NCBI GenBank assembly: GCA_003160265.1
Contig: PLQY01000100.1
Coordinates: 8,223-22,432 of the forward strand
Length of the DNA stretch: 14,210 nucleotides
Direction of reading: 5' to 3'
From: Peptococcaceae bacterium
GTDB lineage: Bacteria > Bacillota > DSM-12270 > Thermacetogeniales > Thermacetogeniaceae
This document shows positions 1,858-14,210 of the stretch, piece after piece; position 1 is the stretch's first letter, and each line of letters begins with the position of its first letter. The notes below the pieces were generated by a model, which was not told the origin of the DNA, did no database searches, and saw only the letters and a list, made by a program, of their open reading frames with translations. The position numbers and the translations under genes were made by a program.

Positions 1858-1885
1858 ACCCCTTTAATCCCCGGAACATATACTA
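1858..1885 (+). promoter_or_regulatory. Sigma-K-type promoter of the cysteine-rich gene at 1936
   Basis: AC at 1858-1859, a 17-base spacer, then CATATACTA at 1877-1885. This fits the Bacillus/Clostridium sigma-K pattern AC-N16/17-CATAnnnTA exactly. It sits 50 bases before the ATG of the next gene. The same architecture recurs upstream of other genes here. Confidence 0.55.
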
Positions 1886-1935
1886 TTAGCGGATTTAGCA
1901 TTAGATTTACAGATTTGTTTAAGGGGGGTATAAAA

Positions 1936-2460
1936 ATGCCATTAATTAAGATTTGTGCCTATGAAGTCACCTCATTCGATCCGGTCTTACCCATAACGTT
2001 GACCTGTTGCGACCCTCACTTCACGCCTGTCGCACCGGGTGACCAGTGCAATGTTTGCTGCTATGATGCCAAACTGGATTTGAGCACAACGCCGCCGATG
2101 CTGTGCTTTTCCTATGATGCCCAGTTTGAATATGCCTATCTCGACAAGCGCCACTACGAGAAGGGCGAAGCTGAACATAAATGCGCCTGTTCGTGCACCT
2201 TTCTGGATTTCTGCGATATAACCGGACAGTCGGCTTGCATTACTCTGCCTGCCGGCGCCACTCTCTGTCCGTGTGGGTGCGGCGAGCCCAAAGTGACCTG
2301 CTCTGCCACTTGTGACCCCGGCAGCATCGAAACGACGCCGAATTCTGTTTCAGGCCATGTTACCATCTCCCTTCACGTGACCAATCTTTGCGATCCCACG
2401 ACTGTTTGCGTAGAAACTGCTCCGTGCATTGATGACCGGATCAAATACTACGCTGGATGA
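1936..2460 (+). CDS. Cysteine-rich putative spore-envelope protein (174 aa)
   Basis: I do not recognise a named family. The 174-residue product has 20 cysteines (about 11%), many in close groups (TCCD, NVCCY, KCACSC, CPCGCG), and no signal peptide or membrane segment. That profile suits a cross-linked structural protein made and assembled inside the mother cell, such as a coat or exosporium component. The motif ITLPAGATLC (residues 102-111) recurs as VTIPAGATVAC in the larger cysteine-rich protein at 6773, linking the two. The ATG at 1936 is chosen because six G residues (1923-1928) lie seven bases upstream; a TTG at 1915 is in frame but has no ribosome binding site. A sigma-K-type promoter precedes it and a terminator follows. 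The spore role is inferred from composition and promoter. Confidence 0.8.
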   Translation: MPLIKICAYEVTSFDPVLPITLTCCDPHFTPVAPGDQCNVCCYDAKLDLSTTPPMLCFSYDAQFEYAYLDKRHYEKGEAEHKCACSCTFLDFCDITGQSACITLPAGATLCPCGCGEPKVTCSATCDPGSIETTPNSVSGHVTISLHVTNLCDPTTVCVETAPCIDDRIKYYAG

Positions 2461-2542
2461 TCAGGGGGCATAGCTTGGCTTGGCCGGCTGGTTGAGAATC
2501 GCTCACATTGCGCTTCTAAAAAAGTTGAGGTTGAAACCTAAG

Positions 2543-2569
2543 CCCGGGATGTATCATGCCCCGGGTTTT
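2543..2569 (+). terminator. Intrinsic terminator after the cysteine-rich gene
   Basis: CCCGGG at 2543-2548 pairs with CCCGGG at 2560-2565. The stem can continue through ATG/CAT with a two-base bulge and is followed by TTTT. It lies about 80 bases after the stop and just before the convergent glycosyltransferase gene, so it also insulates the two converging genes. Confidence 0.7.
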
Positions 2570-2585
2570 GACGTGCTTGGACAGT

Positions 2586-4988
2586 TCACCAGATCGCGGG
2601 TTCAGCGCCCGGCGCCGGGCCGCGGCAGAACATCTTGATCAGCAGGTCGATGGCCTGCATGATGCAGGTGAAGTTTCTCGGCGCCGGCCCCTTGACAACC
2701 TCGTCGCAGGCCATGTCCAGGTAGCGCAGGCTGTCCTGGAAGCGCAGCATTTTGGCGCAGGTTTTGGCGGCGGTGCTGATGCTCACTGGATTAAGGAGCC
2801 CCTTCTCCTCTAATATCTGCTCCAGCGGGACAGCCAGTTTATCGCTCAAAATGACGATGCCTTCAATGGCTTGCTCAAATCCCCCGGGTAGGGCGGTGGC
2901 TTGAAAAAGCAGGTCGGCGGCTTCGGAGAAGCGACCCTGCTGCGCCAGGACCGTCCCCAGGGAGTGCATTGCCTTGAAGCTTCCCGTCCCCGGGCTGGCG
3001 AGGTACTTCTGCCAGGGGGCGTTACCCAGTTCCAGGCAGCGGCGCAACAGCGTTTCTGCAGCCTCTGTGTTCCCCAGGGCGCTCTGGGCAACTGCCAGCA
3101 AGTAGATCAGATCGGTATAATCCGGGAAGAGTTCCGATGACTCCTCCAGGATTCCCGCTGCGCAGTTGTAATCCCGGGTATTGATTAGGGACAGGGCGTA
3201 GTAATAGAAAAAGGCCGGCGTACCGGACATATCGTTCAGCTTGCGGCAGGCTGCAAAGCGGTCTGCCGCGGCGGCGAACTCCCGGGCATAGAAAAGCTCT
3301 TTGCCCAGCAAGTAGTTGCAGGTGAGGCGATCTTCCCGCAAACCCTGGTTGATGGCATCGATTTTCCACTGTCTTTTTCGGGCGATGCTCTTTGGTTCTG
3401 ATTGGTAGTGCAGGTGGTTGACGGTGATCTCTGCCGGGGCAACAGTTTGGCCGGATGCCTGCAGGGATGTAGCTACCTCTCCACCGACCGCCCCCTGGTA
3501 GCGGGCGCCGCGCCCGCAAGCGGCGGCGCCGGGTCCGGCGGCACCCGCAAAAGCGTCGGTGGACACGGCGCGGGCGCGCCGGAACAGCCTGCAGCATCCG
3601 GTTATGTGGCAGTTGACAGGGGATACGCTGCTATCGAGGAAGGTGCAGATTTTCAGGATATACCCGCCCTCATCCGGCGGCGCCTTCTTGAGCAACTCCG
3701 CAATCTGTTTTTTGCTCTCTTCAGGCAGCATCTCATCGGCGTCCAGAACCAGGATCCACTCTTCTAAAGCCTGATCGAGGGCATAATTACGTGCTTCGGA
3801 GAAATTCCCGGGCCACTTGATGGGGAAGATCTTTGCTCCATGCTGGAAAGCGATGGCCAGGGTATCATCGGTGGAGCCCGTATCGACATAGATCACCTCC
3901 CGGGCGATCTCGTTGATGCTGTGAATGCAGTGGCGAATATGGTCTGCCTCGTCCCTGCCGATGATGCAGACACTGATCCCCGGATAATCCTTGGGGATGG
4001 GGCGCCCCTGGAGCCAGTCCCTGTATTCTTCGGCCGAAGCCCCGCAGTAGTTCGTTTCTGTTGGATACCAGGCGGGAGCGGGAGGCATGGCGAAATACCT
4101 CTGCAGGCAGGCGCTGGCCTGGGAGTACCAGCCGGAGTGCAGGTAACAGAGCATCTCCAGGAGAAACAGGTCGTTGTAATTCCCGTAAATACCCTGGTAG
4201 TATTTCAGGTGCCTGATGGCATCACGATACCTGGACAGGTCCATCAGGGTGGCGGCGGTTCTGAGAGCGAGGATTGGGGCATACCCCAGGTTGGCCGCCG
4301 TCAGTTTGGAAGCTTTTAAAAAGCAATTGAGGGCTTTTTCCATTTCCCTGAGGCGGAGGTGCTCCACGCCCAAGTTGTAATAGAAGAAACCGTCTTTTTC
4401 TTGATCTGCCGTGATGCCCAGGAGTTTCAGGTTTCTCCTGATTTTTGCCTGGATGTTGTACTGCTTCCCATTGTACCCGTGGTGGATGATCGAGATGCTG
4501 CACTGCCCGATGCCCTGCTGACCGTGATTGGCAATGATCGAGATGGCGATCTGCTCGTGGATCCGGCCCTCAAAACGAAAGATTTTTCGGTTCCTGAACA
4601 GGCGTACGCTGGGAGCGAGAAGCTTGGAATCCGTTTCTGTCAGGTTGGCCACCTGGATGAAGTAGGCTTCGTAGCGGCTGTCCCGGATCAGAGCCCGCAG
4701 TTCGGAGCCGCTCCCGGGGGCCAGTTCCTCGTCGCAGTCAAGGAATAGGATCCAGTTCCCAGTCGCCCTATCGAGTGAGACGTTGCGGGCGAGGCTGAAA
4801 TCATCCTGCCATTCCGCCTCGATCACCGTTGCCCCCATGCGCCGGGCAATGTCTACGGTATCGTCGGTGGAGCCGGTGTCGACGACGATGATCTCGTCCA
4901 CAAACTCCTTGGCGCTCTGCAGGCAGCGCCCAATATTCCCGGATTCGTTTTTGGCGATCATGCAGAGGCTCAGAGTCACCTGTTCCAT
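2586..4988 (-). CDS. Tandem GT2-TPR glycosyltransferase (two GT2 domains, 800 aa)
   Basis: This is a cytoplasmic, GT-A fold family 2 glycosyltransferase with tetratricopeptide repeats. Domain 1 (about residues 4-230) has LSLCMIAKNE, DTGSTDD, the metal-binding DCDEE (84-88) and FEGRIHEQI. Helical TPR-like repeats follow to about 330. Domain 2 starts at GISVCIIGRDE (about 337) with DTGSTDD (369) and DADEM (416-420), and TPRs follow from about 555 to the end. Domain 2 has a GC-rich insert (about residues 472-496), and the motif matching FEGRIHEQI reads YQGAVGGEV, so the conserved His-Glu is lost and this domain may be inactive. Start: the ATG at 4988 has GGAGG five bases upstream; the ATG at 5000 has none. 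It lies 13 bases after the stop of the paralogue at 5002. Related GT2-TPR proteins (SunS-type and uncharacterised firmicute enzymes) modify proteins or peptides. The acceptor here is unknown, and neighbouring envelope proteins are candidates. Confidence 0.9.
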   Translation of the reverse strand: MEQVTLSLCMIAKNESGNIGRCLQSAKEFVDEIIVVDTGSTDDTVDIARRMGATVIEAEWQDDFSLARNVSLDRATGNWILFLDCDEELAPGSGSELRALIRDSRYEAYFIQVANLTETDSKLLAPSVRLFRNRKIFRFEGRIHEQIAISIIANHGQQGIGQCSISIIHHGYNGKQYNIQAKIRRNLKLLGITADQEKDGFFYYNLGVEHLRLREMEKALNCFLKASKLTAANLGYAPILALRTAATLMDLSRYRDAIRHLKYYQGIYGNYNDLFLLEMLCYLHSGWYSQASACLQRYFAMPPAPAWYPTETNYCGASAEEYRDWLQGRPIPKDYPGISVCIIGRDEADHIRHCIHSINEIAREVIYVDTGSTDDTLAIAFQHGAKIFPIKWPGNFSEARNYALDQALEEWILVLDADEMLPEESKKQIAELLKKAPPDEGGYILKICTFLDSSVSPVNCHITGCCRLFRRARAVSTDAFAGAAGPGAAACGRGARYQGAVGGEVATSLQASGQTVAPAEITVNHLHYQSEPKSIARKRQWKIDAINQGLREDRLTCNYLLGKELFYAREFAAAADRFAACRKLNDMSGTPAFFYYYALSLINTRDYNCAAGILEESSELFPDYTDLIYLLAVAQSALGNTEAAETLLRRCLELGNAPWQKYLASPGTGSFKAMHSLGTVLAQQGRFSEAADLLFQATALPGGFEQAIEGIVILSDKLAVPLEQILEEKGLLNPVSISTAAKTCAKMLRFQDSLRYLDMACDEVVKGPAPRNFTCIMQAIDLLIKMFCRGPAPGAEPAIW
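2607..2620. repeat. Perfect 14-bp GC palindrome near the glycosyltransferase 3' end
   Basis: GCCCGGCGCCGGGC is a perfect palindrome coding part of the C-terminal tail RGPAPGAEPAIW. Its CCCGGCGCCG core is shared with the insert at 3501-3575 of the same gene, so it may be a remnant of the same element. Confidence 0.4.
3501..3575 (-). repeat. GC-rich palindromic in-frame insert in the second GT2 domain
   Basis: Aligning the protein's own two GT2 domains shows about 22 extra residues (Ala/Gly-rich) in domain 2, between LFRRAR and RYQGAVGGEV. The DNA has an 11-base inverted repeat, 3501-3511 with 3538-3548, with one G-U-type mismatch. A tighter hairpin, GCGGGCG-CCG-CGCCCGC, lies at 3501-3517. The core at 3513-3536 matches 20 of 24 bases of the murI insert in the same reading frame. 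This resembles, in concept, the Rickettsia palindromic elements that insert in frame into genes. Homology to those is not implied. Confidence 0.5.
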
Positions 4989-5001
4989 TGCAACCTCCAT
5001 T

Positions 5002-6546
5002 TTAGTAATCAGTGGTTGGAGGAGTGGCCAGCAGGCCCTGTTTGAGCCGTTGTGCCTTGTGTCTCAAGGATGTCAACCTGAACAGCTCCTTGCGCAGTTC
5101 CACCGGTCCATTTTCCAGCTCAAGCATCCTGGTGATGTGCAGCAGGCACTGGCTGGCAAGCTGTTCCAGAGAGCAGGCGGCATAGAGTTCATTGACGGGC
5201 TCCTGCAGACCAGCTTGAGCGAAGTACACGAAGGCCTGGTCGTGCCTGTCGAGATTGTCGCAGGCCGTGCCGAGCAGGTAGTAGACACCGGCTGTGGCGA
5301 TACCGCTGTGCAGGGCGTCCTCCAGTTGTCGCAGGTCCTCCCGGCTGTAGCCCGCCTCCTTGATGTCAAACAGCAACCGGGCAATTGCAGCGTGGTCGAG
5401 GTGGAAGCTGTTCTCCAGGTATGTTGCCACCTCCCCCTCAGCAAGGCCCTTTTGTCTCATCAGCGAGCATAACTGGGCAAACAATTCATCTGCAGGCCTG
5501 ATTCTCAATGCCTGTTCGAGATAGGCCGCGGCCTGATCGAGATCCTGTTGACGGGCGCAGACCTCGGCCAGATTCTGAAGCGCCAGGTGGCCGGTGACCC
5601 CCTCGGTGGTGACATATTCCGGCAGGGTATGGAAGCGAAGGCACTTTAAGAAACTGTCTTTTGCCTGCGCCATCAGGTTCAGGTCAAAAAGAAGCTCTCC
5701 CTTGATAAAGTACAGGTCGGGATAGTCGGGAAAACAGGCCAGGCCCTCGTCGATCAGGTTGAGCGCTTGCTCGAAGTCACCCAGGTCGCCCAGGCAGATG
5801 GCGTAGTTTCGGAAAAACGCCGCAGTAAACATGTCTCCGGGATCGAGATGCTGCCTGACCGCTTCATAATGGTGGCGGGAGTTTTCCAGATCTCCCAGGG
5901 TATAGAAGCTGAGGCCGAGATTGTAGCCCAGGAAGGGATCGCCAGGTCTCTCCGCCAGTGCCTGCTTGAGGATGGAGATGTTGCGCAGCGTCTTCTCCCT
6001 GCGCTGCCCGGCGTGCTGCCTGTATCCGTAGTGCATGATCTCCGCATTTGCATGGCGAATGGCGGCAGTGGGATTTGCCCTGAGGATGCTTGGCGTGATC
6101 TGCTCGTGGATCCTTCCTTCGAAGAAGTAAGCCTCTCTGTTCTTGAACATGCGTAGCCCGGGGTGTCTGATCCGCTGGCCGGACTGGTTTGAAGGGCAAG
6201 GGCTGATGATCGAGAAGGTCCAGGCCTCTATATCGCGGCAGGAGGCCAGGCGTCGCAAGTTATGGGCGGCTTCCGGCGGCAGTTCCTCGTCGGCGTCCAG
6301 GACCAGCACCCACTCCCCGATCGCTTGTTTCAGGCTCTCATTCCTGGCTTGCGAGAAATCATCCTGCCAGGGGAGATGGCATACCCGTGCGCCGTAGCGA
6401 TTGGCGATGGCGGGAGTGGCATCCCGGGAGCCGGTATCCACGACGATGATCTCGTTTACAAAGCCGCAGACGCTCTCCAGGCAGTGCGCCAGATTATCTT
6501 CCTCGTCCCTGACGATCATGCAGAGGCTGATCGTGCTCACATCCAT
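5002..6546 (-). CDS. GT2-TPR glycosyltransferase (514 aa)
   Basis: This is a single-domain relative of the downstream gene and a GT-A fold family 2 enzyme expected in the cytoplasm. The N-terminal GT2 domain has ISLCMIVRDEE, IIVVDTGSRD, the metal-binding DADEE (84-88), LRMFKNREAYFFEGRIHEQI with the His-Glu pair at about 147-148, and MHYGY. From about residue 190 the protein is all helical TPRs (for example PGDPFLGYNLGLSFYTLGDLENS and YPDLYFIKGELLFDLNLMAQA). The ATG at 6546 has AGGTG eight bases upstream and is preferred over the GTG at 6555, which is too close to that site. It is the first gene of a two-gene minus-strand operon and has a sigma-K-type promoter 40 bases upstream. Donor sugar and acceptor are unknown. 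Unlike domain 2 of its neighbour, this catalytic domain looks intact. Confidence 0.9.
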   Translation of the reverse strand: MDVSTISLCMIVRDEEDNLAHCLESVCGFVNEIIVVDTGSRDATPAIANRYGARVCHLPWQDDFSQARNESLKQAIGEWVLVLDADEELPPEAAHNLRRLASCRDIEAWTFSIISPCPSNQSGQRIRHPGLRMFKNREAYFFEGRIHEQITPSILRANPTAAIRHANAEIMHYGYRQHAGQRREKTLRNISILKQALAERPGDPFLGYNLGLSFYTLGDLENSRHHYEAVRQHLDPGDMFTAAFFRNYAICLGDLGDFEQALNLIDEGLACFPDYPDLYFIKGELLFDLNLMAQAKDSFLKCLRFHTLPEYVTTEGVTGHLALQNLAEVCARQQDLDQAAAYLEQALRIRPADELFAQLCSLMRQKGLAEGEVATYLENSFHLDHAAIARLLFDIKEAGYSREDLRQLEDALHSGIATAGVYYLLGTACDNLDRHDQAFVYFAQAGLQEPVNELYAACSLEQLASQCLLHITRMLELENGPVELRKELFRLTSLRHKAQRLKQGLLATPPTTDY

Positions 6547-6586
6547 ACGATCCACACCTGTTTATCCATAGTTGATGGTCACCTAA

Positions 6587-6614
6587 TACGATATGAAAAT
6601 ATTAGGAGAACTGT
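6587..6614 (-). promoter_or_regulatory. Sigma-K-type promoter of the glycosyltransferase operon
   Basis: On the minus strand, AC (6614-6613), a 17-base spacer, then CATATCGTA (6595-6587). This is an exact match to AC-N16/17-CATAnnnTA. It lies 40 bases upstream of the ATG at 6546 and is the only good promoter candidate for the operon. Confidence 0.55.
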
Positions 6615-6677
6615 TACCTGGGGGGTGTGGCGCCGATCGCTTGGGAACTGCAGCGGGGCTATAAAAAAATATTCAGA

Positions 6678-6707
6678 ATCACACTTTTTTAAGACTACCA
6701 TATAATG
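6678..6707 (+). promoter_or_regulatory. Promoter of the large cysteine-rich gene (sigma-K-like or sigma-A-like)
   Basis: AC (6681-6682), a 16-base spacer and CATATAATG (6699-6707) match the sigma-K pattern with one deviation in the last base. The same bases include a perfect TATAAT (6701-6706), 17 bases after ATCACA (4 of 6 to TTGACA), so a vegetative promoter reading is also possible. It lies about 65 bases before the ATG and diverges from the glycosyltransferase promoter. Confidence 0.45.
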
Positions 6708-6772
6708 TATTACCAGTCACTATAAACCAAATGACTGTACGCTTAAAAAATCTTCATCAGGAGGGAAATCAT

Positions 6773-7792
6773 ATGCCAATTACACCAGGCGAATGCGGAT
6801 TTACAGTAGTCGCAGGGGTGACCATTCCAACCTGCCCGCCGTTTACCGCCAAGGATTGCATCCTGGTCAACAAGGTCTACGACCAGTGCTTTACCGAGGA
6901 ACTCGTCACCAGCCAGATACCTGTTTCATCGGCCTGCCCGGGCGTCACCATACCGGCGGGCGCCACCGTTGCCTGCATCCCTATTCCTGGTAGCGCAACC
7001 TGCACCTTCGCCGGGACGGTAGCGGTGACACCGCCGCTGACGCCGTATTTCGAAGAGGTGCTGGTGATCAACTCCTTCGACATCAGCGCTCCCATTCTCG
7101 TAGCCGGGGTAACGGTCTGCGCACCCACTCTCACCCTGACGGGAGCGGCGCGGGCAGATCTGTGGGTACCGCCCGGAACCACCGTCAACTGCGATATCCT
7201 GGCCTTCGGCGACTGCACCTGCACCCTGCTCGCCAGCCCGACAGGCCTGCCGGTAGTGATCGCCTGCACCGGCAAGATCTGCAAGGAGCTCCAGATAACC
7301 GCCCCCGTGAAACTGCTGGTGCCGACCTACGGCTTCTGCGAGGTTCCGGCATGCACCTTCTTGGCACAGCCCGGGTTCGTATGCCCGCCCATGCCGCTCT
7401 TCCCGCCGGATCTTTGCCAGGGCACCCCGACAGTCGTCCTGTTGGGCCTGGAGGGCGCTCCTATTTCGGGCGTGGTGGTTACCGTCGTCAGGACGATACT
7501 CGGCGTTCCTACAGCGATCGCTAACGCAACCACCAGCCTTACCGGAACAGCGACCTTCCCCACGATCGGCGGCTTAGAGGGCGCCATTGACGTTGTAACA
7601 TTCACATATTTGGGCAAACTGGTATCGTTCCCGATCCCGATCGAATTCGTCGACGTTGTGGGAGTTGCCCACGACAGCGCCACAACCTGTTCGCTCATCT
7701 TCACACAGACCGGAACCACCACGACAGGGTTGCCCATCCTCACCGTCACCATCAACGGCTTCGTGGAGGCGGGGACAGTCGACCCCAGGTAA
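6773..7792 (+). CDS. Cysteine-rich structural protein with C-terminal Ig-like domain (339 aa)
   Basis: I do not recognise a named gene. Residues 1-215 are rich in Cys, Pro, Thr and Val (17 of 18 cysteines). They contain KDCILVNKVYDQC (28-39); KVYDxC segments occur in uncharacterised spore-surface-type proteins of Clostridia, recalled rather than verified. The motif PAGATVAC (61-68) has a second form PPGTTVNC (133-140) and a relative in the protein at 1936. Residues about 216-297 (VVLLGLEGAPISGVVVTVV...TSLTGTATFPTIGG) look like a carboxypeptidase-regulatory/transthyretin-type beta sandwich. The tail is Thr-rich. There is no signal peptide. The ATG at 6773 has AGGAGGG (6759-6765) seven bases upstream; an in-frame ATG at 6731 has no such site. 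It diverges from the glycosyltransferase operon, so its Thr-rich parts are candidate acceptors. A spore coat or exosporium role is inferred. Confidence 0.8.
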   Translation: MPITPGECGFTVVAGVTIPTCPPFTAKDCILVNKVYDQCFTEELVTSQIPVSSACPGVTIPAGATVACIPIPGSATCTFAGTVAVTPPLTPYFEEVLVINSFDISAPILVAGVTVCAPTLTLTGAARADLWVPPGTTVNCDILAFGDCTCTLLASPTGLPVVIACTGKICKELQITAPVKLLVPTYGFCEVPACTFLAQPGFVCPPMPLFPPDLCQGTPTVVLLGLEGAPISGVVVTVVRTILGVPTAIANATTSLTGTATFPTIGGLEGAIDVVTFTYLGKLVSFPIPIEFVDVVGVAHDSATTCSLIFTQTGTTTTGLPILTVTINGFVEAGTVDPR

Positions 7793-7815
7793 GGCTCAGA
7801 CCGGGTATCGCAGGC

Positions 7816-7845
7816 AAAGGCAGCGGTTGTCCGCTGCCTTTTCTT
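7816..7845 (+). terminator. Intrinsic terminator after the large cysteine-rich gene
   Basis: GGCAGCGG, loop TTGT, CCGCTGCC: an eight-pair perfect stem extended by AAA/TTT and followed by TTTTCTTTG. It lies 27 bases after the stop. Confidence 0.9.
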
Positions 7846-7875
7846 TGCTTCATCATTTTATTTGCATGCTTCCTC

Positions 7876-7914
7876 CTCCGCATCCGGGCTGCGCCCGGCC
7901 TGAAGAATGCGGAG
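7876..7914. repeat. Two-tier intergenic stem-loop
   Basis: CTCCGCAT (7876-7883) pairs with ATGCGGAG (7907-7914) and encloses a second stem, CCGGGC (7884-7889) with GCCCGG (7893-7898), around a TGC loop. It has no T-tract on either side, so it is not a standard terminator. It lies between convergent genes and about 100 bases beyond the minus-strand stop at 8013. It could protect a 3' end or be a REP-like element. Confidence 0.5.
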
Positions 7915-8012
7915 CACAGGAGCAGTCAGGGCTTTTCAGGAGGATGGGAGCGGATCTTGCTCAGGAATTCACAGGGGTTCTCCACCCAACTGGGCAGATT
8001 GACTGTGCCTTC

Positions 8013-9143
8013 TCACCCGCTGGCGCCAGGCGGTTTCGGCGGTGGATTATGAATGATTGCTTCGAAACCGGGCCGGCTGGGGATCTGCTCCAATGGCAGC
8101 GAAGCAGGCGCCGGCGGTTGCATGCCCGCCCGGTATCCGGTACGAGCAGGGTACTGGGCACCCCCTGGGTGGGAGACGTTGAAATGCGCCTGGCTTTCCA
8201 TTCCAGCGGGATACTGCGGCAGGTGTTGTTCCCGTCTGGCCATTGCAGCCTCACGGGCGCGCAGGATATTCAACACCAACTCAGTCACTTTGGCCGCATT
8301 CAATACCTCGGGCTGTTCCTGAACAGGCGGTATTGCAGGCTTCGGGGCACCTGGCTGCCCTGAATCCCGGCAGGCTGTCTCATCGATGGCCGGCTTTTCC
8401 TCCTGGCGTTGGCTGATGATTTTCTGCACCTGTTTGGCCAGCGCCTCCAGATCGATAACGGGCTTTTCCTCCTTGTGCTGGCTGATGATTTTCTGCACCG
8501 ACTCAGCCATCGCCTCCAGATCGATGGCCGGCTTTTCCTCCTGGCGTTGGCTGATGATTTTCTGCACCTGTTTGGCCAGCGCCTCCAGATCGATAGCCGC
8601 CTCTTTTTGCTGTAGGGCCGTGTCATCTTGTTCTGCAGTTGTGGTTCTGATTTGCAGCAGAGGTTCCATTAAATCCAGGTTCGCGTTGTAGTGTCCGGGT
8701 GTGATCTCTGCTGCGATTTGACCTTCTACAAATACTTCAACCCATGTTTTGCGTGAGATAAAGCTTTTTAAAAGTTCCCAGGGCTTCAAGTTCAAAGGCT
8801 TGCCAAGCTTGATCCGCGCATGTAACGGTTGGACAAAACCCGGCTGAATATCGATTGTCCCCGCAGACAGCATTTCAAGTGTGTCCGACCCGGTGAGCAA
8901 GATGGATTCACAAAAAGTACGGGTTAAACTCGCGGTGTCGTATACAGGTTCAAGCTCGTTTACTGTACTTGGATAGCAGAAAACCAGATCGTATTTTCCG
9001 AAAACTAGGATATTTTTTTTAAAAATAAGCTCGCAGTACGTGGTTACGTTGTCGATTTGATAGGAAATGGGGTAACCTGGAAGAGGAATATAAAATATGG
9101 ATAGGAAGTCCTTTTCAACAGAGGAGCTGATCTGTCCGGCCAC
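8013..9143 (-). CDS. Repeat-containing putative coat-type protein (376 aa)
   Basis: I do not recognise the family. Residues 1-160 form a compact, beta-rich-looking region (FYIPLPGYPISYQIDN, ILVFGKYDLVFCYPS). It loosely recalls spore coat CotE/SPOCS-type domains in pattern, but no motif proves this. Residues 183-251 are three 23-residue helical repeats (core IDLEALAKQVQKIISQ), probably coiled coil. The tail from about 265 is rich in Pro, Gln, Ala, Gly and Met. There is no signal peptide. The start is uncertain: GTG at 9143 has GAGG eight bases upstream, whereas TTG at 9215 has no ribosome binding site and would lie inside a candidate -10 element. A weak AC-N17-TATATATTG (9240-9213) precedes it, two bases off the sigma-K pattern. 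The upstream minus-strand gene is separated by a terminator. Confidence 0.75.
   Translation of the reverse strand: MAGQISSSVEKDFLSIFYIPLPGYPISYQIDNVTTYCELIFKKNILVFGKYDLVFCYPSTVNELEPVYDTASLTRTFCESILLTGSDTLEMLSAGTIDIQPGFVQPLHARIKLGKPLNLKPWELLKSFISRKTWVEVFVEGQIAAEITPGHYNANLDLMEPLLQIRTTTAEQDDTALQQKEAAIDLEALAKQVQKIISQRQEEKPAIDLEAMAESVQKIISQHKEEKPVIDLEALAKQVQKIISQRQEEKPAIDETACRDSGQPGAPKPAIPPVQEQPEVLNAAKVTELVLNILRAREAAMARREQHLPQYPAGMESQAHFNVSHPGGAQYPARTGYRAGMQPPAPASLPLEQIPSRPGFEAIIHNPPPKPPGASG
8391..8597 (-). repeat. Three 69-bp tandem repeats within the coding sequence
   Basis: The units are 8391-8459, 8460-8528 and 8529-8597. The outer two differ at only one base of 69, while the middle one has diverged at several. 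Each encodes 23 residues of the form [AV]IDLEA[LM]A..VQKIISQ..EEKP. The A-B-A pattern suggests recent duplication or gene conversion, with copy number likely to vary between strains. Confidence 0.95.
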
Positions 9144-9221
9144 TGTACTCACCTCGTTTTGGTCGTTGGCCTGCCGCCCACCACCAACCGCTAAATGCGA
9201 TTCTCTAGTTTTCAATATATA

Positions 9222-9249
9222 GAAATAAGGGAGGATCTGTGCTCCTCCC
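9222..9249 (-). terminator. Intrinsic terminator after the proline-rich CxxC gene
   Basis: Read on the minus strand: GGGAGGA (9249-9243), a seven-base loop, TCCTCCC (9235-9229), then TTATTTC. It lies about 40 bases beyond the stop of the gene ending at 9289 and separates it from the next minus-strand gene. Confidence 0.75.
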
Positions 9250-9288
9250 GTTTAACTGCTTGCGACACCTGCCGCTTTAGCGTCCGCC

Positions 9289-9714
9289 TCAGCGTTTCGG
9301 AGCGGCATGAACAGGACTGACCGGTACGGGACCAGCATAGGTGTGGCATTTCGAGCATTTGTTGATCGGCCTGGGAGCTACATAAACAGGCTGTGCGGGG
9401 TTTGGCCTCATTATGGGAGTGGCGTAAACTGGGCGTCCGGGGTTTGTAATGGGTGTGGGAGCGGTAGAAACTGGGCGTCCTTGGTTTGTATTCAGTATTG
9501 GAGGTCGTGAATTATATTGGGCCAGCACCTGATCCGGCCCCACCGGAATTCCATGGTCCACGGCAATCGGCTTACATGCACAATAAAGTTCCAGTTTTGG
9601 TACCGGTTCCTCTTCAAGCTGCAGCAGATTGCAGTTGGGGCACTGCTGCGTTTCGGTGACTTCCGGAACTTTCTCTGCGAATGGGTCAACGTGGTTCTTA
9701 TCGGCGGGGATCAT
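9289..9714 (-). CDS. Proline-rich protein with two CxxC pairs (141 aa)
   Basis: I do not recognise the family. The N-terminal third has CPNC (about residues 25-28) and CAC. The middle is a degenerate repeat (GRPVSTAPTPIT, GRPVYATPIMR, AQPVYVAPRPI). CSKC precedes a Pro/Val tail. The cysteine pairs could bind zinc or form disulphides, and the PVYxxP repeat suggests an extended structural segment. There is no signal peptide. The ATG at 9714 has AGGAG (9726-9722) seven bases upstream. Upstream on the same strand is CATATAATA, a sigma-K-type -10. A terminator follows. The composition suits a small envelope or coat protein, but this is inference. Confidence 0.75.
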   Translation of the reverse strand: MIPADKNHVDPFAEKVPEVTETQQCPNCNLLQLEEEPVPKLELYCACKPIAVDHGIPVGPDQVLAQYNSRPPILNTNQGRPVSTAPTPITNPGRPVYATPIMRPNPAQPVYVAPRPINKCSKCHTYAGPVPVSPVHAAPKR

Positions 9715-9760
9715 CTATAATCTCCTTTCATGATATATTCTGGGTAATTGGTATCCTGGA

Positions 9761-9788
9761 TATTATATGCAATACTGGAACAAATGCT
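9761..9788 (-). promoter_or_regulatory. Partial sigma-K-type promoter of the proline-rich gene
   Basis: On the minus strand CATATAATA (9769-9761) fits CATAnnnTA exactly, but the bases 17 upstream are AG rather than AC. It lies 46 bases before the ATG at 9714. Confidence 0.4.
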
Positions 9789-9889
9789 ACATTTAGCTCC
9801 TACGGAGGAACGTCCCCTCTGGAGTTTTTTGTGCCAACCGGAAAAGGAAATAGTAACTAAATTATGGTAACCACCAGATAATGTGATGG

Positions 9890-9911
9890 AAGTCCAGAAT
9901 AAACTGGACTT
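9890..9911. promoter_or_regulatory. Perfect inverted repeat AAGTCCAG-N6-CTGGACTT
   Basis: An eight-base perfect dyad with an AATAAA spacer, 16 bases upstream of the ribosome binding site (9928-9933) of the gene at 9942. There is no T-tract, so it is not a terminator. It could be a protein-binding operator or a 5' leader hairpin. A very weak AC-N17-CAGATAATG lies just upstream (9856-9883). Confidence 0.45.
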
Positions 9912-9941
9912 AACTCCATAATATAGCAAGGAGTGGTGTGC

Positions 9942-10421
9942 ATGTCTAACCTGATCCAAAACCCCAGTTTTGAGGAGGGACTGAGCTTCTGGAGTGCGCA
10001 TAATGCCTCCGTCAGCGACAACAATCCCTTCGAAGGAACAGCGACTGCCCGTTTGGGGCCCGGAATCGCCAGCATAACCCAGGATGTTTTGCTGGGCATC
10101 CCCAGGTCGTCCCTGCTGTTGAGCTTCACCGTGGAAGCACCTGCAAGCACTGATCCGGGCAATCTGACGGTGAACGTCAAGTGGCTGGATAAACATCACC
10201 TGGAGATCGGCACTGGTTTGAGCATGTTAATTCCTTCGGCGACCATCGGGAGACAACTTCTCTGGTTGACCGAGGTCAACGTCACCGATCTTGCTCCGGA
10301 GAATGCGTGCAAGGCGCGGGTCATCTTCAGCAAATCGGAAGGCACGGGGTGCAATAACTTCATCGATCTCGACCTTGTCGTGCTGACCAAGGTCGCCATG
10401 CTGGTGCAAGGGGTGAGTTAG
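9942..10421 (+). CDS. Jelly-roll, NTTRR-F1-like surface protein (159 aa)
   Basis: The protein starts NLIQNPSFEEGLSFWSAHNASVSDNNPFEGTATARLG and ends with a beta-strand-like NNFIDLDLVVLTKV. This N[LI]I.N.sFE.G..W pattern is typical of carbohydrate-binding-module-like jelly rolls. It also resembles the NTTRR-F1 domain found at the N-terminus of collagen-like spore-surface proteins in Firmicutes, an assignment from memory. No collagen (GXY) repeats follow, so it would be a stand-alone domain. There is no signal peptide. The ATG at 9942 has AAGGAG (9928-9933) eight bases upstream; an upstream in-frame GTG overlaps that site. The next ORF begins on the base after its TAG stop, implying translational coupling. 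A role in binding envelope glycans is plausible given the neighbouring glycosyltransferases. Confidence 0.8.
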   Translation: MSNLIQNPSFEEGLSFWSAHNASVSDNNPFEGTATARLGPGIASITQDVLLGIPRSSLLLSFTVEAPASTDPGNLTVNVKWLDKHHLEIGTGLSMLIPSATIGRQLLWLTEVNVTDLAPENACKARVIFSKSEGTGCNNFIDLDLVVLTKVAMLVQGVS

Positions 10422-10595
10422 ATGACTTCGATGCCTGTTCATGGAATCAGTAAAGCCGAGCTCTTCGAGGAACTACAAACAGAATCAAAACCTGAGATCA
10501 TAAGTCGTTTATTGAAAGCCAAAGGGTCAATAAAGGACCTTGCCGCCGATACCGGTTCTGACGAAGATCAAAACTACAAGCAAGTAATACTCTAA
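10422..10595 (+). CDS. Small 57-residue ORF coupled to the jelly-roll gene
   Basis: The ATG directly follows the TAG of the preceding gene, and AAGGGG (10408-10413) lies eight bases upstream, so translation coupling is likely. The product has a helical, charged core (KAELFEELQTESKPEIISRLLKAKGSIKDLAAD) and a short polar tail, with no cysteine, signal peptide or membrane segment. I do not recognise it. A strong terminator follows 30 bases after its stop, which supports it as the last gene of a two-gene transcript. It may be a small partner of the upstream protein. Confidence 0.6.
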   Translation: MTSMPVHGISKAELFEELQTESKPEIISRLLKAKGSIKDLAADTGSDEDQNYKQVIL

Positions 10596-10625
10596 CTTAC
10601 AATCCAGGAAGGTCGGCGCTAGTCG

Positions 10626-10657
10626 GGAGGAAGCCGGAAAGGGGGCTTCCTCCTTTT
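10626..10657 (+). terminator. Intrinsic terminator of the 9942-10595 transcript
   Basis: GGAGGAAGCC (10626-10635), an eight-base loop, GGCTTCCTCC (10644-10653), then TTTT. The ten-pair stem is perfect. Confidence 0.85.
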
Positions 10658-10682
10658 GATTGAAGACACAGATGCAGGAATG

Positions 10683-10702
10683 GCTTGCCGGATCGGGCAA
10701 GC
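10683..10702. repeat. Small intergenic hairpin
   Basis: GCTTGCC (10683-10689) pairs with GGCAAGC (10696-10702) around a six-base loop, between the terminator and the next promoter. No T-tract follows. I see nothing else in 10658-10762. Confidence 0.35.
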
Positions 10703-10762
10703 AGAGAGGCGTCCAACCGGCTGACGTCGCCCGGAAGCAGGAAAACCGTCCACACGCTTCTA

Positions 10763-10790
10763 ACGCTCTGAAGAACCGGCGCATATATTG
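10763..10790 (+). promoter_or_regulatory. Sigma-K-like promoter of the gene at 10836
   Basis: AC (10763-10764), a 17-base spacer, CATATATTG (10782-10790). One base deviates from CATAnnnTA, the same final-base change as in the promoter at 6678. It lies about 45 bases before the GTG start. Confidence 0.5.
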
Positions 10791-10835
10791 ATATACAGCG
10801 TTCAAGTTTGGTCTCCAATCAAGGAGGGATAGAAA

Positions 10836-11258
10836 GTGATCGAGAATGATTCGTCGCTGAGATTCCAATTTAAGCACAGTCTGAATAGGCTGCGGATGAG
10901 AGCCAGGGAAGTGCTGGCAGGCGCCCAGCCGGAACGGCGGCCCAATATCTCTGAAACCACAGTTGGTGATGATAGCGTGAGGGTCGATGGGGATGTTCCG
11001 GCTGCCCCCGAACCGGATCAGATCATACACCTGGTGATGCATCACCAGCCCTGGCTTAAGCCGCCCGGACAGCCGGTCGAATGCCCCCGGGAAAATGATG
11101 ACGCCGTAAGCGAATACGAAGATGTGACTTCGGGGCTATCATCCCGGGTAAAGCAATCCCTGACCTCCCGGGAGCCTCAAAAAGAAGACAAGAGCGAGGT
11201 CTTGCAGTGTTTAATGGATGGCAAGCAGGCAGGATGGGACGGCGAATATAAAATATAA
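10836..11258 (+). CDS. Acidic protein of unknown function (140 aa)
   Basis: The GTG start is supported by AAGGAGGG (10821-10828), seven bases upstream. The N-terminal 30 residues are basic and helical (FQFKHSLNRLRMRAREVLAG). The rest is hydrophilic, rich in Asp, Glu, Pro and Ser, and probably disordered apart from DQIIHLVMHHQPWL in the middle. There is one Cys pair (C82, C125 approximately) and no signal peptide. I do not recognise the family. Its own sigma-K-like promoter and the promoter of the next gene frame it, so it appears to be an independent unit of the same putative regulon. It is a hypothetical protein, but the strong ribosome binding site and promoter make expression likely. Confidence 0.65.
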   Translation: MIENDSSLRFQFKHSLNRLRMRAREVLAGAQPERRPNISETTVGDDSVRVDGDVPAAPEPDQIIHLVMHHQPWLKPPGQPVECPRENDDAVSEYEDVTSGLSSRVKQSLTSREPQKEDKSEVLQCLMDGKQAGWDGEYKI

Positions 11259-11275
11259 AACGGGAGCATTTTCGA

Positions 11276-11303
11276 ACATCAGGCAAGAACCTGGCATATA
11301 TTA
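11276..11303 (+). promoter_or_regulatory. Sigma-K-type promoter of the gene at 11344
   Basis: AC (11276-11277), a 17-base spacer, CATATATTA (11295-11303): an exact match to AC-N16/17-CATAnnnTA, 40 bases before the ATG. Confidence 0.55.
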
Positions 11304-11343: not shown

Positions 11344-11577
11344 ATGGGTACTCTTGTTGATGATATGAAAAGCCTCGCCGACGAAGTGATCGGATCATTT
11401 ATCAAGCGTAGACAAGATCTGCAGAAGCTTGACCGGGATGTCAACGACATGATAGCCCGCTATGAAGCGGAACGCCAAAAAATGGGCGTCGAACTTCAGA
11501 AAAAGCTGGCCCGGTCCCTCTCTCATTGGCTCCATATTGCACCACCGCTGTCAAAATTGACATATTCTGCAGCATGA
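11344..11577 (+). CDS. Short coiled-coil protein (77 aa), possibly truncated
   Basis: The ATG has AAGGAGG (11330-11336) seven bases upstream. Residues 1-57 (MGTLVDDMKSLADEVIGSF..., DRDVNDMIARYEAERQKM) form one long charged amphipathic helix with a heptad-like pattern. This resembles the start of uncharacterised coiled-coil proteins of about 100 residues or more in other bacteria, recalled and not verified. After KKLARSL the sequence changes to SHWLHIAPPLSKLTYSAA, which does not continue the helix, so the gene may be truncated or frameshifted. I could not find a convincing continuation in the other frames of 11500-11700. It has its own sigma-K-type promoter. Confidence 0.65.
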   Translation: MGTLVDDMKSLADEVIGSFIKRRQDLQKLDRDVNDMIARYEAERQKMGVELQKKLARSLSHWLHIAPPLSKLTYSAA

Positions 11578-11869: not shown

Positions 11870-12652
11870 CTAGCCGATAAACTCCTCTACGACCACCTCA
11901 TAGCCGTTGTATGGAATGACACCCACGCCGACTTGAGTGAAAGACGGGTCCAGGATAATAGCCGAGTGGCCGGAGTCGGACATGAAATCCGAGTTTGCCA
12001 CCTCCACATTTGCCACCTCTGCTATGTTCTCGCCGGTGACCGTGTAGGTGACGCCGAATTCGGTGAGCATCTGACTGGGCATGCCGTAGGTTGGCGAATC
12101 GTGGCCGAAGTAGTCGTTGGTGATCATATCCTGTACCTTTGCTGTGGCGGCCTCCGTGGCGGTCATATTGACAGTAACGGTACTTACACCATAGTCTGCC
12201 CGGTCCTCGTTAATAAGATCGACGAGGGTCGCCTCATCGGCAGTCAGGCCTGAAGTATTTACAGGAGTTGGAGTTACTGTAGTCCCGGTAGTGCCGGTAG
12301 TCGTTGTAGGAGTCGTTGGAGAAGTGTAGACTACGGGCGTCGGAGTGTAGCTCACCGGCAGCGGGCTGGCAGTACTGTTGTTTACAACCGGTGACGGCTG
12401 GGAAGCAGTCGGAGTTGTCGTACCGGTGGTCGTTGTCCCGGTTGTTGTAGTTCCACCGGACTGGGTAGTCGTTGTGCCGCTAGTCGTAGAGGTTGTTGAA
12501 CCGGAAGAAGAATTGTTTTGAACGACTACGGGCGTCGGATTGTAGCTCACCGGCAGTGGGCTGGCGGCGAAGGCGCCGGATACGGAGAAGCCTAACACGA
12601 GAAGACCGAAAAGCAACAAGGGGATGCCAATCTTCCATATGGCTCTCTGCAA
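11870..12652 (-). CDS. Secreted CAP-domain protein with Thr-rich stalk
   Basis: This is a YkwD-like CAP/SCP-PR1 family protein exported by a signal peptide (AIWKIGIPLLLFGLLVLGFSVSGAFA, cleavage before ASP). A Thr/Ser/Gly/Pro linker follows (residues about 30-135), with two copies of ASPLPVSY-x-PTPVV and runs of TTTTG. The C-terminal CAP domain (about 137-260) keeps YFGHDSP (H184), GENIAEV (E208) and SGHSAIILDPSFTQVGVG (H229), the cavity His/Glu residues of the family. The usual final Gln-Phe motif reads EEFIG. CAP proteins in Firmicutes are commonly linked to the cell wall and spores, but their activity is unsettled. The TTG at 12652 is preferred because AGAGGTGAGG lies just upstream; a GTG at 12661 is in frame but sits inside that site. 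The Thr-rich stalk is a natural O-glycosylation target for neighbouring glycosyltransferases, which is inference. Confidence 0.88.
   Translation of the reverse strand: MQRAIWKIGIPLLLFGLLVLGFSVSGAFAASPLPVSYNPTPVVVQNNSSSGSTTSTTSGTTTTQSGGTTTTGTTTTGTTTPTASQPSPVVNNSTASPLPVSYTPTPVVYTSPTTPTTTTGTTGTTVTPTPVNTSGLTADEATLVDLINEDRADYGVSTVTVNMTATEAATAKVQDMITNDYFGHDSPTYGMPSQMLTEFGVTYTVTGENIAEVANVEVANSDFMSDSGHSAIILDPSFTQVGVGVIPYNGYEVVVEEFIG
12329..12567 (-). repeat. 44-bp direct repeats bracketing the Thr-rich stalk
   Basis: The copies at 12329-12372 and 12524-12567 match at 41 of 44 bases and lie 195 bases (65 codons) apart, so recombination between them would keep the frame. They encode ASPLPVSY-x-PTPVV. 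The stalk length could therefore vary by deletion or duplication. Confidence 0.85.
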
Positions 12653-12843
12653 AAACCTCACCTCTTTCTAAAATTTTAGATAATATGAAGCTCTGTACCT
12701 AGATTGTATCCGCGGGCTTGGCCGGACTGCAAACCAGCATAGCGGGCGAGAGACCAGGCTCGTCTAAAAGACAACCTCACATATCTTTGAGAGTTGTATT
12801 TACTCAGAAATAGAGGGGCATGGAATACTTTAGGGGCTTGAGA

Positions 12844-14154
12844 TTACTTTCTTTCAGGACCAATCTGGCCTATTCCGCGCTTTCTTTCCCATAAGAGTTG
12901 ATAAACGCCGTGAATGCTCCGGATCTCTTCATCAAGAGTGGGCACCGCGGTAGCAGCGGCGCCGTGCTTCAGCCGGGACAGCAGCGCCCGATCGGCAATC
13001 AGGGCTGTGACGCGCTCCCGGAGCGCCTCCTGATCCCCGATATCGATCAGGAACCCGTTGTCACCGTCTGCGACGATCTCCGATCCGAAGAATTTGGTGG
13101 CTATTACCGGACGTCCGCGGGACAAAAACTCGCGCAGCACGCGCGAATAACCTTCGAAATACGATGGGACAATGCCCACGTCTACTTCTGCCATAATTTC
13201 ATCGATGTCATCAAAGGCGCCCCGGTGTTGCACGCAAGGGATACTTATGAGCTCCTGCACCAGTGCGGTGCTGTAATAATAGCCATAGATGAGCAGTTGC
13301 GCCAGATCGGGTTCGATATTCCGGAATGCATGGGAGAGGAGTTCGATGCCCTTGCGGACGGCAGTTGTCCCGACAAAGCAGAAGTTGACAGGCTTGACTT
13401 CTGACATCTTGCTTCTGATATCTGATACCGCAGCCCTGTTCCTTGGCGGCTGGATGCCATGGGGAACAAGGAACATTTTATGCTCCGGAATGCGGATGAA
13501 ATGGGTGAAAAATCTCTGAAACGCGCCGCTGGCGAAGAACACCCCGTCGACTACCCTGTCGTAGAGGAACTGGATATACTGGCGCCAGGCCTGAATGTTT
13601 ACCGTCAGGGATCCCTCGTCCCAGGGGATGGACCAGTCTGGCCTCTGGATGTACTTGGTGATGCACCGGTCGCACTTCGCCGGACTGGTCGGCCCCGTGC
13701 AGGGCTGACGCAATTCGGCCAGGAAGGGTTCAATCCGCAAGCATAACTCTTCAGTATGGAAGGCGTGGCGCATGACGATCGCTCCACTGTCCGAGGCGAT
13801 CTGCAACACCTGGGGAGGGAGACAGACATAATCCACAACATGAGCGAAATCCGGCTTAAAGTCTTGCAGCACTTCTTTAACGGGTTGGAGCGGCGTCATG
13901 TCCTTCAGGAGGCCGCTGCTGAGGTTGAGGCCGAGCTGGTTAAAACCCATCACCCGGTATAACCTGACGTCTTCCTGCTCCTCGCTCTTGAACGGTCCGG
14001 GAGATTCAGCCGGAGTGAGATTGGGAATCATGACTCCCACCCGGTACCCCAGGCTCTGCAACCCCAGGGCGTAATCCCGGGTGACCAGCGGTGTTCCCGT
14101 ATACTCATACGGCGGCAGGCTGTGACAGATCAACAGTACCGAACGACCGTTCAT
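12844..14154 (-). CDS. GT4-family glycosyltransferase (436 aa)
   Basis: This is a GT-B fold, family 4 (glycogen phosphorylase/glycosyltransferase superfamily) enzyme in the cytoplasm. The N-terminal Rossmann half starts with VLLICHSLPPYEYTGTPLVTRDYALGLQSLGYRV. The C-terminal half has VNFCFVGTTAVRKGIELLSHAF, VDVGIVPSYFEGYSRVLREFLSRGRPVIAT with the EX7E pair (E334, E342), and a helical C-terminus. A CTGPTSPAKCDRC segment (three Cys, about 152-164) in the N-terminal half may bind metal; similar cysteine motifs occur in some GT4 enzymes. The ATG at 14154 is chosen because AGGAG lies 12 bases upstream; the GTG at 14166 is only one base from it. The upstream promoter is outside or at the edge of the window. 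The sugar and acceptor are unknown. It may act with the GT2-TPR enzymes on surface glycans. Confidence 0.9.
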   Translation of the reverse strand: MNGRSVLLICHSLPPYEYTGTPLVTRDYALGLQSLGYRVGVMIPNLTPAESPGPFKSEEQEDVRLYRVMGFNQLGLNLSSGLLKDMTPLQPVKEVLQDFKPDFAHVVDYVCLPPQVLQIASDSGAIVMRHAFHTEELCLRIEPFLAELRQPCTGPTSPAKCDRCITKYIQRPDWSIPWDEGSLTVNIQAWRQYIQFLYDRVVDGVFFASGAFQRFFTHFIRIPEHKMFLVPHGIQPPRNRAAVSDIRSKMSEVKPVNFCFVGTTAVRKGIELLSHAFRNIEPDLAQLLIYGYYYSTALVQELISIPCVQHRGAFDDIDEIMAEVDVGIVPSYFEGYSRVLREFLSRGRPVIATKFFGSEIVADGDNGFLIDIGDQEALRERVTALIADRALLSRLKHGAAATAVPTLDEEIRSIHGVYQLLWERKRGIGQIGPERK

Positions 14155-14191
14155 GCTGGTGGACACTCTCCTGTTTAACTAGTTCTTGGCG

Positions 14192-14210
14192 TCAGTGGGG
14201 AAACCACTGA
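14192..14210. repeat. Hairpin at the right window edge
   Basis: TCAGTGG (14192-14198) pairs with CCACTGA (14204-14210) around a GGAAA loop, about 25 bases upstream of the GT4 ribosome binding site. The stem may extend beyond the window. It could be a leader hairpin or an upstream terminator, and no T-tract is visible on the minus strand. Confidence 0.4.

Follow-up and report, generated by a model that had tools for sequence, protein, structure and literature searches.

The mother-cell sigma factors σE and σK have a CATAnnnT -10 element in common, and the promoter type that concerns us here is itself already well known. The σK regulons of C. difficile (PMC3789822) and B. subtilis (PMC517825) use an AC -35 element and a CATAnnnTA-type -10 element about 17 bp apart; in C. 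difficile the -35 element is AC for σK and ATA for σE, and dpaA, the second sigK promoter and the collagen-like bclA1-3 genes are under σK (PMC3789822), and in B. subtilis the -35 elements of the two factors differ at one base, which is read by Gln in σE and by Arg in σK (PMC517825). The locus that we have analysed resembles these regulons in its motif, which dpaA and sigK carry in its own clade too, and it resembles the BclA-type exosporium glycoproteins in that collagen repeats are likewise encoded beside glycosyltransferases. It differs from the known σK regulons, however, in that none of the proteins A, D, F, G and C reaches the cut-off of a named family and in that an operon of TPR-containing glycosyltransferases lies behind one of the sites, all of this being known here from sequence, and it differs from the BclA systems in that the collagen gene lies outside the analysed stretch and is interrupted by an N, the pairing of enzyme and substrate being one of proximity only. 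Among the titles listed in a limited literature search, none concerned the spore-surface genes of this bacterial family.

The window, by which we mean the whole stretch of 14,210 nucleotides that was analysed, spans positions 8223-22432 of one contig (C91) of the draft genome of an uncultured Peptococcaceae/Thermacetogeniaceae bacterium (G000; 1.78 Mb in 120 contigs, 84.7% complete). The explanation that best accounts for the observations as a whole is that this window forms the core of a spore-surface cluster driven by σK late in sporulation, a reading to which we give a probability of roughly 0.78. On the plus strand the window carries gene A (1936..2460; a Cys-rich protein of 174 aa), gene B (6773..7792), gene E (9942..10421), gene F (10836..11258; an orphan of 140 aa) and gene G (11344..11577; an orphan of 77 aa that looks helical by inspection). 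On the minus strand lie GT1 (2586..5000; two glycosyltransferase-2 stretches, both PF00535, E 5.3e-39, and TPR repeats) and GT2 (5002..6555; a family-2 glycosyltransferase, PF00535, E 1.8e-21, also with TPR repeats), which are separated by 1 bp and form an operon, together with gene C (8013..9143), which converges on B, the proline-rich gene D (9289..9714; family unassigned), gene H (11870..12661; a YkwD/CAP-domain protein) and gene I (12844..14166; a group-1, GT4-type glycosyltransferase, PF13692, E 8.2e-22). In the congener G001 the GT2 ortholog lies within a frame of 1037 aa, roughly double the length of GT2.

Pfam assigns no family to A, B, E or F, and for A neither Pfam nor NCBIfam gives a match; G has no family with E < 0.05 in either collection. 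Gene E resembles the NTTRR-F1 domain below threshold (NF033675, 61.9 bits against a cut-off of 70), and H scores 122.6 bits (E 9e-36) against TIGR02909, which is likewise sub-threshold (cut-off 171), and also matches PF00188. Among 25 other genomes an ortholog of A was found in G001 only (63% identity) and F has no relative; D has orthologs in the second congener, G002 (78%), and in G001 (50%). No relative of E, F or G was found in the fetched regions of other genomes, which for G were searched with tblastn.

The sequence-only reading of this DNA had proposed that a shared σK-type promoter links at least five transcription units into a late, mother-cell set, and all seven sequences that it quoted exist on the strands that it named. 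The exact pattern AC-N17-CATAnnnTA occurs three times in the window, as that reading had it, and at no other place there: before A (1858..1885, plus strand; AC at 1858 and CATATACTA at 1877-1885), before the GT2-GT1 operon (6614-6587, minus strand; CATATCGTA, set inside GTAACA...CATATCGTATTA) and before G (11276..11303, plus strand; CATATATTA). Two one-base variants ending in CATAnnnTG are also present as quoted, one before B (6681..6707, plus strand), in which AC at 6681 is followed after 16 bases by CATATAATG (6699-6707), and the other before F (10763..10790, plus strand; AC-N17-CATATATTG). Before D (9761..9789, minus strand) the -10 element is CATATAATA at 9769-9761 and the -35 element reads TAGCA, with GC in place of AC. 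The sequence-only reading had put the sites about 40-75 bases before their starts; counted from the C of the CATA element, the start codon lies 40 (GT2), 49 (G), 54 (F), 55 (D), 59 (A) and 74 (B) bases away. In our assessment three of the proposed units stand firmly (A, B and GT2-GT1), D is probable, and F and G, judged from their letters, have possible mother-cell-type promoters; a seventh, gene C, drops out.

The sequence before C (AC-N17-TATATATTG, minus strand, with a -10 element that starts at 9221, 78 bases from the start codon) is present as described, but we reject it as a promoter and regard σK as a very improbable factor for this gene. Its AC falls within GGGAGGAGCACAGATCCTCCC, a terminator-like hairpin (9229-9249) behind gene D, and any [C/T]ATAnnnT within 170 bp is absent from all nine other C upstream regions, which comprise two congeners and seven other family loci and in three of which the start codon is approximate. 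Two further candidates were also set aside: CATAATATA before E (9917), which is merely 25 bp from the ATG, and CATATTATC before H, which is merely 26 bp from the start and was not found in the G001 ortholog. We note that a perfect inverted repeat without a T-run, AAGTCCAG-AATAAA-CTGGACTT (9890-9911), lies 30 bp 5' of gene E and is a possible operator. Another inverted repeat, around TCAGTGG..CCACTGA and with GCCAAGAACTAGTTAA, lies upstream of gene I (14170-14210), and a similar stretch is found on contig C16 of the same draft (L013).

To calibrate the motif we used promoters, from the same clade, of genes whose sigma factor is established in other organisms. Of 17 dpaA loci fetched, 16 could be parsed, and an AC-N16..18-CATA arrangement is found in every one of these (N17 in 15 and N18 in one) and in all eight sigK loci (N17 in seven and N16 in one). 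A σK matrix made from these 24 promoters, none of them from the window, was run over 371 kb of G000, a kind of scan that the sequence-only reading had suggested as a check. For A and B the outcome was favourable, these being the best (28.9) and second best (25.2) sites, with nothing in the 292 kb of background reaching either score and with held-out congener dpaA and sigK promoters scoring 24.6-29.7; for the others it was less so, with scores of 13.1 (D), 11.5 (GT2), 10.2 (F) and 4.4 (G), of which the last three lie under the lowest leave-one-out score of the training promoters (range 13.5-26.9). Because of these lower scores D, GT2, F and G are not proven by the matrix alone.

The strongest competitor is that the sites are σE promoters and the genes early mother-cell genes, which we consider improbable. 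The σE matrix is a weak one, built from 10 spoIVA sequences (effective number 3.9; 10 of 12 parsed rows from 20 loci, two rows at the wrong CATA having been left out), and on it A scores 1.3, B 1.9 and GT2 6.7, so that likeness to the σK rather than the σE promoters of the clade is clear for A and B and modest for GT2. These three sites also have AC and lack the ATA that is the σE hallmark at -35, and the parsed spoIVA loci of the clade carry -35 boxes of the AATA type ahead of CATATAAATA or sequences like it. For F and G the σE idea fares better: the hallmark is ambiguous in both, and their scores on the σE matrix (10.4 and 12.6) are no lower than those on the σK matrix, so that these scores do not separate the two factors and make σE possible for G. 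In addition, the third best σK-type site in the 371 kb (22.3) lies before yunB (PF09560), a σE gene in B. subtilis, and the matrix may therefore not fully separate both factors. We hold σK rather than σE to be quite likely the factor for A, B and GT2 and, with less assurance, the probable factor for D; for F and for G, each taken singly, the chances of σK are a little short of even.

The σE reading also draws on the content of the draft, in which SigE is present and sigK has no match over the cut-off, a point against the σK reading. The missing sigK means little, however, because the draft is 84.7% complete, dpaA has no match over its cut-off either and spoIVA is itself divided between two contigs; sigK is intact in both congeners. 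What the draft does hold is a sigE-sigG pair, preceded by a spoIIGA-like gene (named by inspection), and the -35-reading helix of its SigE is GISQSY where seven SigK proteins from relatives have GISRSY, the same Gln/Arg difference by which the two factors are told apart in B. subtilis (PMC517825).

Elsewhere in the family sigK is split in seven members (L190-L196, in G007, G013, G008, G010, G012, G005 and G004). The gap is about 1.7-2.3 kb in G007, G008, G012 and G013, where the largest gene within it encodes a recombinase-like protein of 503-521 aa, of the serine type by inspection, and it is 3.7 kb, with a similar recombinase-like gene, in G005. The split lies near residue 70 in G010 and near residue 140 in G004, and the differing positions imply at least three insertion sites. 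These interruptions look like minimal skin elements, although a skin element has been described as an exception among clostridia (PMC5025042).

The sites of B, GT2, A and D are conserved before orthologs; several of the compared genomes are near relatives, so that the counts that follow are not independent events. Before B the string CATATwATrTA is kept in all 12 upstream regions, from 10 genomes; upstream of it the letters of ACA are kept in 11, 12 and 12 of the 12, followed by a less conserved spacer, and AC stands at N16 in 11 of them, one G001 copy having lost it. The GT2 operon site is kept in all three congeneric genomes. The A site is kept in both species that have the gene, with AC-N17-CATATACTA also preceding the G001 ortholog and the -35 region differing between the two species (GCACC and GTAACA). 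The D site, with its variant TAGCA, is kept in all three genomes compared (the window, G002 and G001).

These same alignments bear on a second alternative, that some of the sites, above all that of B, which reads GTAACA-N17-TATAAT in relatives, are ordinary σA promoters expressed in growth. Such a reading can point to the perfect TATAAT within CATATAATG and to the fact that GTAACA, with its 17-bp spacer, fits TTGACA at four of six places by inspection. We nevertheless find it highly improbable: CA precedes TATA in each of the 12 regions of B and likewise in the sites of A, GT2 and D, and among these last three TATAAT is present in D alone; three B regions (L088, L090 and L091) have TATTAT yet keep both CA and TAACA; the -35 element lacks TTG; and several of the neighbouring genes are of spore type.

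The sequence-only reading had estimated that fewer than one exact match would be expected by chance, and the three observed compare with a mean of 0.10 in dinucleotide shuffles of the whole window, none of 200 of which reached three. We also shuffled the 130-bp upstream regions of ten window genes (A, GT2, B, C, D, E, F, G, H and I, the last shortened by the window end). The exact motif lies 35-85 bp before the start in three of the ten (shuffle mean 0.014), AC-N16..18-CATAnnnT[A/G] lies at promoter distance in five (0.060) and CATAnnnT alone does so in six (0.81), and none of 2000 shuffles equalled any of these counts. Among 136 other G000 genes with a free upstream region, which unlike the ten window genes had passed a length and ribosome-site filter, the corresponding numbers are one, two and six (Fisher P 9e-4, 1e-5 and 1e-5), and one of the two genes with the relaxed motif is yunB, a sporulation gene. 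All three tests are post hoc, the window having been chosen for its motifs; as controls they exclude chance for the set of sites.

Genome-wide density, which the sequence-only reading had suggested comparing, told against the motif as a stand-alone predictor, and we reject it in that role: the whole draft holds 24 exact matches against 33 for the reversed control, and 12 of the 24 lie inside an open frame (as called by a crude gene caller that yields some spurious frames). Three of the 24 are those in the window, all 5' of genes, and a fourth lies 2.4 kb beyond its end. The exact pattern is not enriched genome-wide, and on its own it does not define a regulon; what does so is where the sites lie, how well they are conserved and how they cluster locally. 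That the sites are merely CATA-type strings of the kind that AT-rich gaps in a GC-rich genome yield, a view which that absence of enrichment favours and which accounts for the sequence before C and could account for F or G alone, is scarcely credible for the set given the shuffles, the two control genes in 136 and a conservation that reaches across genera while the spacer is kept less well; for A, B, GT2 and D, conservation already tells against it.

Gene B appears from its sequence to encode a remote relative only of the BMQ_0737 spore-coat family (NF052457; 22.4 bits, E 1.2e-4, against a curated cut-off of 71), with residues 29-206 aligning to positions 2-186 of the 199 in the model, and 21 of 22 aligned B sequences match the same model at E up to 0.01 (best 1.1e-13). 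BMQ_0737 itself was reported to be one of the outermost proteins of the B. megaterium spore (PMC4656864). B differs from it in falling far under the cut-off and in having an extra C-terminal part that is beta-rich in the predicted structure (pLDDT 82, pTM 0.45), for which many of the weak structural matches are transthyretin-like. Neither this structure nor that predicted for C (pLDDT 59, pTM 0.39) has a PDB match at E <= 0.001, and a profile comparison of B with C revealed no relation. The two genes lie close together with their ends facing in all nine other genomes in which both were found, with a gap of up to 1.1 kb in G005; in G001 what adjoins C is a C-terminal fragment of B, where a contig ends.

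Gene C contains three tandem 23-residue units of IDLEALAKQVQKIISQRQEEKPA type (window 8390-8610; starting at residues 184, 207 and 230). B is seemingly multiplied in G001 (L081, L082 and L083), as a single complete copy together with fragments at contig ends, two of them N-terminal and one C-terminal. We also note a hairpin repeat, GCATCCGGGCT..CCGGCCTGAAGAATGC, 3' of B (7880-7910), which is by its sequence a putative REP-like element; it occurs five times in G000, another copy lying 3' of a small hydrophobic protein gene on contig C90, four times in G002 and not at all in G001 and three other genomes.

Some of the sites share a longer -35 region, and this form extends beyond the window. TAACA-N14..16-CATAnnnTA, a pattern settled on once the G000 sites were known, is found 19 times across the three congeneric genomes and its reverse three times (five, ten and four in G000, G001 and G002 against zero, three and zero), and when the orthologs of the window sites (A and GT2) are removed the counts are eight against three in G001 and three against zero in G002. 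It is not enriched in ten other family genomes (19 against 21 reversed), so that we reject it as a family-wide signal, nor in seven genomes outside the family (50 against 47). The five G000 sites precede a collagen-like gene, its paralog, the gene of a small hydrophobic protein (which matches nothing in Pfam and which we take to be YjcZ-like), the GT2-GT1 operon and a family-less gene that heads the next glycosyltransferase cluster. The two paralogs begin MSEKPTEC, in the protein with collagen repeats (PF01391, E 3.7e-8), and MCEEPTEC, in one cut by a contig end; the promoter site of the former lies 2.4 kb past the window end. The cluster-heading gene has its site about 220 bp away, and the site recurs 85 bp upstream of its G001 ortholog.

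Sites before genes of these kinds make up three of four in G002 and five of ten in G001, and of the remaining six in these two genomes two are inside genes, two are before other genes and two are before no called gene. From the window end to 32 kb the contig encodes glycosyltransferases of family 2 (two) and of group 1 (three), along with a radical-SAM protein and one protein that has no match in Pfam, and the whole is bounded, as in G001, by sugar epimerase-like and RNase PH-like genes (named by inspection). It is conceivable, if unlikely, that GTAACA-N-CATAnnnTATTA represents a genus-specific sub-class of σK promoter for an undescribed glycosylated spore surface. Such a sub-class would tie coat proteins of the B type to collagen-like proteins and TPR glycosyltransferases over 22 kb or more, and an additional activator might recognise the bases conserved near -35 and immediately behind -10. 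Against this, gene A has GCACC in one of its two species but GTAACA in the second, so both forms may simply be interchangeable.

We therefore return to the σK-driven spore-surface cluster, which would occupy roughly 22 kb (about 10.1-32.3 kb of the contig) in a sporulating member of the family. Late in sporulation, in the mother cell, σK RNA polymerase would initiate at AC-N16/17-CATAnnnT sites before A, B, GT2-GT1 and, in all probability, D; outside the window it would do so before the collagen-like gene and the further glycosyltransferase cluster. The products would include structural proteins of an outer coat or exosporium-like layer (B, the collagen-like proteins and the Cys-rich A), and the glycosyltransferases would glycosylate proteins of that layer; that they act on A, B or the collagen-like proteins is a guess from proximity. 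The spore-surface role is one that we infer from family, neighbours and promoter type, as we do activity in sporulation and the location of the proteins. In so far as the sequence-only reading claimed a late mother-cell set of σK type, it holds for A, B and GT2-GT1, through a matrix trained elsewhere, conservation or both.

Since these neighbouring genes appear to have a common late-sporulation switch, their products probably act jointly in assembling and decorating the surface of the spore. Promoter models of the clade, with dpaA and sigK set against spoIVA, help to tell σK sites from σE sites by the -35 element. If our reading is right, the locus would provide a testable sporulation regulon in an anaerobe lineage known mostly from metagenomes, and would tie a group of family-less proteins, and the glycosyltransferases encoded among them, to the surface of the spore.
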